Shown here: piece after piece, positions 19,966 through 21,448 of the stretch
Position numbering within the stretch: the stretch's first letter is position 1
How the letters are laid out: each line of letters starts with the position of its first letter
From: Nitrospira sp.
GTDB taxonomy: Bacteria; Nitrospirota; Nitrospiria; Nitrospirales; Nitrospiraceae
Reading direction: 5' to 3'
Assembly (NCBI GenBank): GCA_016788465.1
Contig: JAEURV010000278.1
Location: 1-34,555, forward strand
DNA length: 34,555 bases
Translations under genes and position numbers: made by a program
Notes under the pieces: generated by a model
Told to the model about the DNA's origin: nothing
Databases searched by the model: none
Seen by the model: only the letters and a program-made list of their open reading frames with translations

Positions 19966-20844
19966 TCAAATGGGCACGGGTACCGACTCCTCCTGCGGCT
20001 GCTGAGGCCAGACAGGCAGTAAATCAGCCTGATCATTCAGCGGCTCCTGGTGGCTTCCCTCTTCAGACTCTCGTGGAGACAATTGATCTTCCCAAAGGAT
20101 CTTCTTCCCGCTGGGATCATACATGCGAATTCTTAACTCAAACCGGTGAAAAGTGTTTGACGAAATTCGCCCCGACAGCGTAGACCGATCCGTGATCGAA
20201 TGGAGATGAGGAGTTCCACCCAGGACCGTAGTAAACTCATCCTCCCAGACGAGAGAGCCGGTTGCCGCATCTACCGCACGCAATGAGAATATCGGCTGTT
20301 CGCTAGACGGCTGCCCTGCACGGACTCTTGTGATGGTGGCCCGACTAAATTTTCGAGTCGAAACGGCTTGCCCCCTGCCCTTTCCATCAGGTTGCACGAG
20401 GTTGAGTCGGCCTTCCCATTCGAATATCCCGGTATTCGCGTCGTAGACTCGCAAAACGAAGTTGGAGAGATCTGTAGCCCCTGGTCCGACACCACCCGCA
20501 AAAATACGGCCCCCCTCGTTCTTTCTTGCTCCATCACCTTCCTTGACCGTCAGTTCATAGACGTCATCGGATATGATCGCACCTGAGTCCGCCTCGTAAA
20601 CCTTCACCGAAATCGCGGACACCGAACCGATCTGATACCCAAACCCTGCCGCCACAATGGCCTTCTTATCTGTGGAAACGACCTGAGCCAGCGCTTGATC
20701 AGTCCCACCGTAGATCCCGCACAATCCAATAAAGGCCACCAAGCTCAGGACCCTCAAACAACGGATTCCTACAGCCCAGCGCTTTTGCTCTATGGTACGA
20801 GCTGAGTGCCCAAAAGATGGTGGAAAGTCGAATGTTTGTGACAT
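19966..20844 (-). CDS. Exported protein with four short WE-type repeats, function unknown
   Basis: The 292-residue protein has a late hydrophobic signal segment (CLRVLSLVAFIGLCGIYGG, about residues 29-47) and a likely cleavage after ALAQ (residues 51-54). The mature part carries four spaced copies of a unit like VYDANTGIFEWEGRL: near residues 80-95 (degenerate), 130-148, 188-204 (AVDAATGSLVWEDEF) and 237-254 (MYDPSGKKILWEDQL). These resemble blades of PQQ-type beta-propellers, but four units in this length are too few for a full propeller. The end is Pro/Gln/Glu-rich. AGGAGG sits close to the ATG inside a long hairpin, suggesting translational control. The gene is alone; its partner on the left is convergent. 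Confidence 0.7.
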   Translation of the reverse strand: MSQTFDFPPSFGHSARTIEQKRWAVGIRCLRVLSLVAFIGLCGIYGGTDQALAQVVSTDKKAIVAAGFGYQIGSVSAISVKVYEADSGAIISDDVYELTVKEGDGARKNEGGRIFAGGVGPGATDLSNFVLRVYDANTGIFEWEGRLNLVQPDGKGRGQAVSTRKFSRATITRVRAGQPSSEQPIFSLRAVDAATGSLVWEDEFTTVLGGTPHLHSITDRSTLSGRISSNTFHRFELRIRMYDPSGKKILWEDQLSPRESEEGSHQEPLNDQADLLPVWPQQPQEESVPVPI

Positions 20845-20845
20845 G

Positions 20846-20884
20846 TATCCTCCTCAGAATGTGGAGGCATTCTGAATGAGGATA
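20846..20884 (-). promoter_or_regulatory. Hairpin enclosing the ribosome-binding site of the exported repeat protein
   Basis: On the minus strand TATCCTC (20878-20884) pairs with GAGGATA (20846-20852). After a small internal bulge, TCAGAATG (20868-20875) pairs perfectly with CATTCTGA (20854-20861), leaving a 6-base loop. The 15 base pairs end two bases before the ATG triplet at 20844, and the Shine-Dalgarno GGAGG (20849-20853) is buried in the stem. This layout is that of a translational switch or RNA thermometer; the function is inferred. Confidence 0.5.
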
Positions 20885-21448
20885 GGAGGTCGGTAAATTC
20901 CTCACTGATGGGATGAATCCCCTCTAAAGAAGGTGCACAAAGAGACACAGCCCAGTGGGGTTGAGCCTATCCCCTGGCAAGCGCTGCGACACCAAACTAT
21001 CGATACTGATGACGTGCCACGAAGCAATAGCCCCATTCTGCTAACTTCCGCACCCTGCCAAACAGTAGCTCCCACAGCATCGGTGTCCCACCTGGCAGAT
21101 TGGGAAGAACGGGGGAAAATACGTCGAGTCTCGGAAGGACCTTCCCGGAAAGTTGAATGAAGTCGGCTGTCTCATGTTGAGCAAGGCAATACCGCTGACT
21201 AAGCACAGGCCTAGCCACTTCACATTGATACGCAATCAATCTGATGCTTGTCACCGGCTCGCCGCTCACACGCCATTTTTGCAGACACACAGCGCCGACA
21301 TTTCGCGTCATCAATCAGAAGGCCGCCCGCATCGGAAACAGACTCTTCTCCTGATCTTTAGACTCCATGATACCCTCCCTCCATCAACCTACGCGTGACT
21401 GCACGGCACCCATTGCCGACCTTTTCCTCAACAGTCTATAGTGACTCA
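20885..21448. other. Noncoding region, about 560 bases
   Basis: No reading frame here looks like a gene: the longest minus-strand frame (20997-21314) has no ribosome-binding site and an irregular composition. It separates two divergent genes and must hold their promoters, which I could not place firmly. The only structure seen is a compact palindrome GGAAGG-A-CCTTCC at 21133-21145. Confidence 0.4.

Follow-up and report, generated by a model that had tools for sequence, protein, structure and literature searches.

Translational RNA thermometers, as they are generally understood, hold the Shine-Dalgarno (SD) sequence in a helix near the AUG, and a hairpin of this appearance precedes a gene on the minus strand of the stretch of Nitrospira DNA analysed here (the window, 34,555 nucleotides). 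It differs from thermometers in that no melting is seen between 10 and 50 °C in silico, and in that the predicted mRNA is without one of the two arms. A second familiar arrangement is the activator-dependent sigma70 promoter with a short leader. Weak hexamers 17-18 nt apart, upstream dyads, a CA at the predicted start and an SD within 21 nt are features that the locus has in common with such promoters, whereas the first base of its -10 element is a C in the leaders used, where the selection pattern required it. The third system is phage T4 gene e, whose inhibitory stem, as outlined in PMC3014915, carries late promoters in its 5' strand; the transcripts from these promoters lack that strand. 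Set beside that outline, the Nitrospira locus is alike in that, by calculation, a stable stem sequesters the SD when the RNA is extended upstream. A conserved promoter-like sequence, which falls short of the consensus threshold, lies in the 5' strand of this stem, and transcripts begun at the predicted start would lack that strand. The locus differs in being a cellular gene of a nitrifying bacterium, with a predicted promoter that is sigma70-like and not of the T4 late type.

The hairpin, the gene behind it and the open reading frame in front of it are arranged as follows:
20846..20884, minus strand: reported hairpin, with the 5' arm at 20884-20868 (bulge A20877), the loop at 20867-20862 and the 3' arm at 20861-20846, the latter including GGAGG at 20853-20849
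19966..20844, minus strand: downstream gene for a 292-aa protein with a hydrophobic helix at the N-terminus and, in a model of low confidence, a beta-rich structure
20997..21314, minus strand: ORF upstream of the gene in the same orientation, with a weak DCC1-like match (Pfam E 0.0041, which misses the cut-off)

An earlier note, made from the sequence alone, had placed the hairpin at exactly this position with the whole GGAGG inside the stem, and in both respects it was right. It had described 15 base pairs (7 plus 8, with a small bulge) ending two bases from the ATG; the stem and the bulge are there, but RNAfold gives 7 + 9 pairs, one of them U-G, around a one-base bulge, and a single base, C20845, separates the hairpin from the ATG at 20844. 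The minus-strand sequence from 20884 to 20846 is TATCCTC-A-TTCAGAATG-CCTCCA-CATTCTGAG-GAGGATA. A 61-nt piece with the hairpin folds at -21.8 kcal/mol (z = -4.93), and none of 200 shuffled sequences was equally stable. As background served 260 SD-bearing gene starts of the same genome, the studied one included, which a simple script of our own collected from 394,632 bases (the window and 20 other stretches). Raw folding energy was equal or lower in 16 of the 259 other starts, and the SD was equally paired in 25 of the 237 others with a scorable SD, while a z as low as that of the studied gene (-6.04 for a 58-nt piece) was reached by 0/259. The hairpin is thus real and much stronger than composition predicts, whereas a buried SD as such, taken alone, is not rare in this genome.

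Orthologs of the downstream gene were found in 52 of the 98 genomes searched, all within the genus Nitrospira (52/59), and none was found in the 39 other genomes of the order. Where the loci reach far enough, the gene order is a methyltransferase, a divergent membrane-protein gene, often the DCC1-like ORF, the leader, the gene itself and a convergent peptidase-like gene; the DCC1-like ORF went undetected in 10 of 44 compared loci although its neighbours were found. As to the protein, Pfam returned PQQ_2 alone, below the cut-off, and a PDB sequence search gave three weak matches, two of them quinoprotein-like. The AlphaFold2 model is of low confidence (pLDDT 60.6), and a Foldseek search with it found no match at E 0.001 or better.

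The comparison of leaders started from 79 oriented loci. A box-to-CANAAT pattern was matched by 54 distinct segments from them; 22 further ones were duplicates, and 3 missed it. The pattern required GGAAT and CANAAT with 20-25 bases between them, so that the invariance of these two elements is partly a product of selection; the spacing of 22-23 and the CA described below were not demanded. The three misses are L039, L044 and L046; a start was absent in L050 and too distant in L049. L102 was dropped because it is cut by a contig end, as were L109 and L110, pattern matches on other contigs, and the third pattern match of genome G113 was left out. Also left out were the ortholog loci of G009 and a fragment in G032, whose leader was taken from another contig (L108). 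Alignment A1 consists of 52 leaders, and A2 of 25 of these 52, hand-chosen as nearly gap-free (24 distinct). A set of 69 leaders comprises the 52 and 17 more, some of which repeat earlier loci, so that 55 of the 69 are distinct in their arms. SD opening was compared in 61 distinct leaders, 44 with CCTC in the spacer and 17 without.

Around and upstream of the hairpin, these leaders share a block with the following elements:
20919..20932, minus strand: P1, a dyad or hairpin CTTC...GGGG at the start of the conserved block; the sole RNAalifold helix in the 52 A1 leaders
20897..20914, minus strand: second dyad-like box, ATCCCATCAGTGAGGAAT, recognized by sequence and conservation and abutting the -35 element; TTCCCACAGTGGGGAAT in some other sublineages
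20892..20897, minus strand: -35-like TTTACC, with the T fixed by the pattern, A at 100% and C at 96% (55 distinct weighted leaders), 17-18 nt from CANAAT
20869..20874, minus strand: -10-like CAGAAT, within the hairpin's 5' arm; ranked first within 250 nt by a sigma70 matrix entered by hand in 56/69 leaders
20862..20862, minus strand: predicted transcription start, the A of a conserved CA and the last base of the hairpin loop
20845..20862, minus strand: predicted 18-nt 5' untranslated leader, ACATTCTGAGGAGGATAC; 16-21 nt long in 69/69 leaders if CA is the start

The genus-wide layout is TTtAC, 17-18 nt, CANAAT and a CA about 7 nt further on, preceded by two GC-rich dyads, and it is this promoter-like layout, and not the pairing, that is under the strongest genus-wide constraint. 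The distance from GGAAT to CANAAT is 22 (57 leaders) or 23 (12 leaders) in all 69, and most of the bases between vary. The A of CA follows CANAAT by 7 nt in 60/69, by 6 in eight and by 8 in one, and when the leaders are anchored on CANAAT alone, the two columns contain 77% C and 80% A, while the distance from CANAAT to the ATG varies from 21 to 27 (52 leaders). The pattern GRGGAATNNAC-N17-19-CANAATR has 66 matches in 63 of 79 Nitrospira genomes, against none for the reversed-pattern control. That 61 of these 63 genomes have one match each (G026 has two, G113 three) is a further difference from activator-dependent sigma70 promoters. There is no sign of a regulon, since in the window's own genome the box with up to three mismatches occurs at 28 places, compared with 19 for its reversed control, and an exact search with the complete pattern finds only the place in the window. 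Information content climbs steeply over P1, the box, TTTAC and CANAATGC. Most of the spacer carries little of it, CCTC excepted, and it reappears at the SD and the ATG.

With this hand-entered sigma70 matrix, the CANAAT site ranks among the top three within 250 nt upstream in 63/69 leaders and among the top ten in 69/69, and the best placement falls at CANAAT in 67/69, with a mean score of 6.3 compared with -4.2 at the same place in shuffled sequences. Of the protein-anchored leaders that miss the pattern, L046 has its site at first rank, with CATGAT at the -10 place, and L044 at second, while L039 has no good site. That the hexamers act as a promoter is suggested by these rankings and spacings; against it weigh a match to only 8/12 consensus bases in the window, at a spacing of 17, and the rival places that outscore the CANAAT site in 13/69 leaders. 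A consensus scan of 20700-21400 at 9/12 or better found no promoter, and the titles and abstract openings returned by a literature search held nothing on Nitrospira transcript starts or thermometers.

We consider it probable that the hairpin lies across the promoter and start of the gene itself, and that the normal mRNA, beginning at 20862, lacks the 5' arm. Of the two arms, the 5' one would be promoter DNA, namely the -10 region with the adjoining spacer, and the 3' one nearly the whole 18-nt mRNA leader including the SD. Because the predicted start lies in the loop, the 5' arm would be excluded from the normal mRNA, and the SD would be less occluded. Control of expression would lie at the promoter and probably work through the two upstream dyads, of which the box at 20897..20914 is a possible activator site. 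An RNA reading through from upstream, for which the co-oriented ORF at 20997..21314 is a possible source, would carry both arms and would be translated more poorly. Two observations on the dyads may be added. Between 20897 and 20922, a GGGGAWT-like sequence occurs both in the 3' arm of P1 and in the box, at a distance of about 18-19 bases (distant relatives have GGGGAATC ... GGGGAATA), and TTCCC stands inverted between the two repeats, which may be paired activator sites. The sequence CAGTGGGGAAT (20897-20907; also in distant leaders, for instance L049), with CACAATGG some way behind it, seems to resemble part of bacterial 16S rRNA, which we take to be probably a coincidence; no 16S rRNA match was found in the window's genome.

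What would the two kinds of RNA mean for translation? In the 44 distinct CCTC leaders, opening the SD costs on average 9.9 kcal/mol in the extended RNA as compared with 4.7 kcal/mol in an RNA that begins at CA, and the cost is higher by more than 2 kcal/mol in 38/44. The corresponding values for the 17 distinct leaders that lack CCTC are 5.4 and 4.2 kcal/mol, with a rise of more than 2 kcal/mol in 6/17; the burial is mostly lost there, and the promoter-like block remains. For the window itself the opening at 37 °C costs 8.3 and 5.3 kcal/mol, respectively, and loss of the 5' arm brings a calculated gain of only 3 kcal/mol, a point against the promoter reading. The earlier idea that the stem blocks translation is supported in a restricted form: initiation would be hindered in RNA with both arms, and the SD would be less occluded in the predicted normal mRNA. 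An RNA thermometer, in which warmth melts the stem and frees the SD, had been considered as well, and the buried SD fits it. In the extended RNA of the window, the calculated opening cost falls only from 11.9 kcal/mol at 10 °C to 9.7 at 25 °C and is still 7.2 at 50 °C, and because no melting is calculated between 10 and 50 °C, we regard a thermometer as highly improbable and rejected it, the SD not being freed within the growth range. The thermometer or switch that the earlier note had in mind is not supported for the normal mRNA, since conserved promoter-like sequence overlaps the 5' arm and the start is predicted in the loop, the temperature scan shows no melting, and the burial is mostly gone in leaders without CCTC. 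That homologous genes of relatives lack the pairing, which the note had named as a refutation, turned out to be partly the case, the burial being mostly gone in these 17 leaders; in near relatives the stem recurs.

A possibility that we hold more tentatively than the promoter reading is that the hairpin, in addition to that reading, is itself selected and silences RNA that arrives from upstream, like the stem of phage T4 gene e. As such transcripts would be silenced, the protein would be made only when the gene's own promoter fires. The predicted geometry is that of gene e as outlined in PMC3014915, and the rise in SD opening cost in the CCTC leaders speaks for it. Three of the four CCTC:GAGG pairs are invariant in the 24 distinct near leaders, which exceeds what a promoter spacer needs and counts against the promoter reading by itself. 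In the 25 nearest leaders RNAalifold retains the SD hairpin and a helix of 3 pairs besides P1, which is all that it retains in the 52. Over the 16 pairs of A2 (24 distinct leaders), 83.2% are formed compared with 81.3% in shuffles (1/500 as high), and the covariation score is 0.114 compared with 0.089 (5/500 as high), but the three pairs changed on both sides were reached by 352/500 shuffles. When arms were swapped among leaders, with statistics uncorrected for kinship, the native combinations folded better in the 32 distinct near leaders (-17.68 vs -15.97 kcal/mol, 0/2000 permutations) and in 14 others (-9.86 vs -9.03 kcal/mol, 29/2000), and sets thinned to 24, 18 and 12 gave 1-5/2000 permutations. 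Compensation between the arms, for which the earlier note had suggested looking in relatives, is weak. Among 27 nearest disjoint leader pairs, a rough kinship correction in which the pairs are not fully independent, 12 were for compensation, 4 against and 11 near zero (mean +1.11 kcal/mol), and the p of 0.046 is marginal; an earlier set of 25 pairs had given 14 for and 4 against (p = 0.051). Duplexes of spacer and leader were better than those with shuffled spacers (p < 0.05) in 21/55 leaders, the window's own p being 0.18. In one group of leaders (L013, L015, L018 and kin), 4 additional nt separate the SD from the ATG, which makes the predicted leader 21 nt long, and the stem is rearranged.

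Further points against a selected hairpin are the leaders without CCTC, in which it is mostly lost, and the lack of any relation between its strength and a detectable co-oriented DCC gene in 44 loci (25/34 with and 8/10 without such a gene, p = 1). A tie between read-through silencing and the co-oriented DCC gene was dropped for this lack of association. Taken together, the comparisons suggest some selected or inherited pairing in a part of the genus and little in the rest.

A different origin of the extended RNA would be a transcript that regularly starts upstream of P1. The conserved block of about 105 nt could then be an undescribed, Nitrospira-specific leader RNA, i.e. a cis-regulatory RNA in which P1 and the GTGGGGAAT box sense a ligand or protein and switch the SD hairpin as expression platform. 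The block does reach the SD, and the SD pairing is extreme for its composition. P1, in relatives commonly CCCCTC-TTTC-GAGGGG, suits an RNA hairpin, since over four of its pairs in A1 there are 48 U-G cells as compared with one C-A cell (the change is mainly C to T in the 5' arm), and the pairing is kept by G-U. P1 also persists in orthologs for which the upstream neighbour that was detected points the other way, and a terminator would serve no purpose there. Because of the G-U pairs of P1 and the three invariant CCTC:GAGG pairs, this RNA is kept as a candidate, but we think it unlikely. The 52-leader consensus fold retains P1 alone, the fixed spacing of 22-23 nt across mostly variable bases is promoter-like, and no second promoter was seen at a fixed place 41-160 bases before the box, since information there is only 0.07-0.22 bit per base (10-base bins), in a profile that is blind to a promoter upstream of P1 at varying distance. 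Rfam 15 gave no match above the gathering threshold in the whole window and three sub-threshold matches in 20800-21000 (E 0.4 to 2.3), by which a known cis-regulatory RNA family was rejected.

The pairing could finally be a by-product of DNA symmetry, if the 16-pair imperfect inverted repeat around the predicted start, covering the -10 element, were the operator of a repressor. The long inner arm of this repeat is a trait of the nearest leaders, and one inner arm, the 5' CAGAATG, is nearly invariant while its partner varies, which also favours the promoter reading, so we regard an operator as improbable, and slightly more so than the leader RNA.

The locus, in which the arm that hides the SD is probably promoter, shows how a textbook-looking SD hairpin can arise by folding DNA that lies upstream of a transcription start. 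It also provides a genus-wide regulatory block in nitrifying bacteria. Should selection nevertheless maintain the hairpin, this would be the phage T4 gene e design in a cellular version, a cheap way of keeping a gene quiet in read-through RNA.
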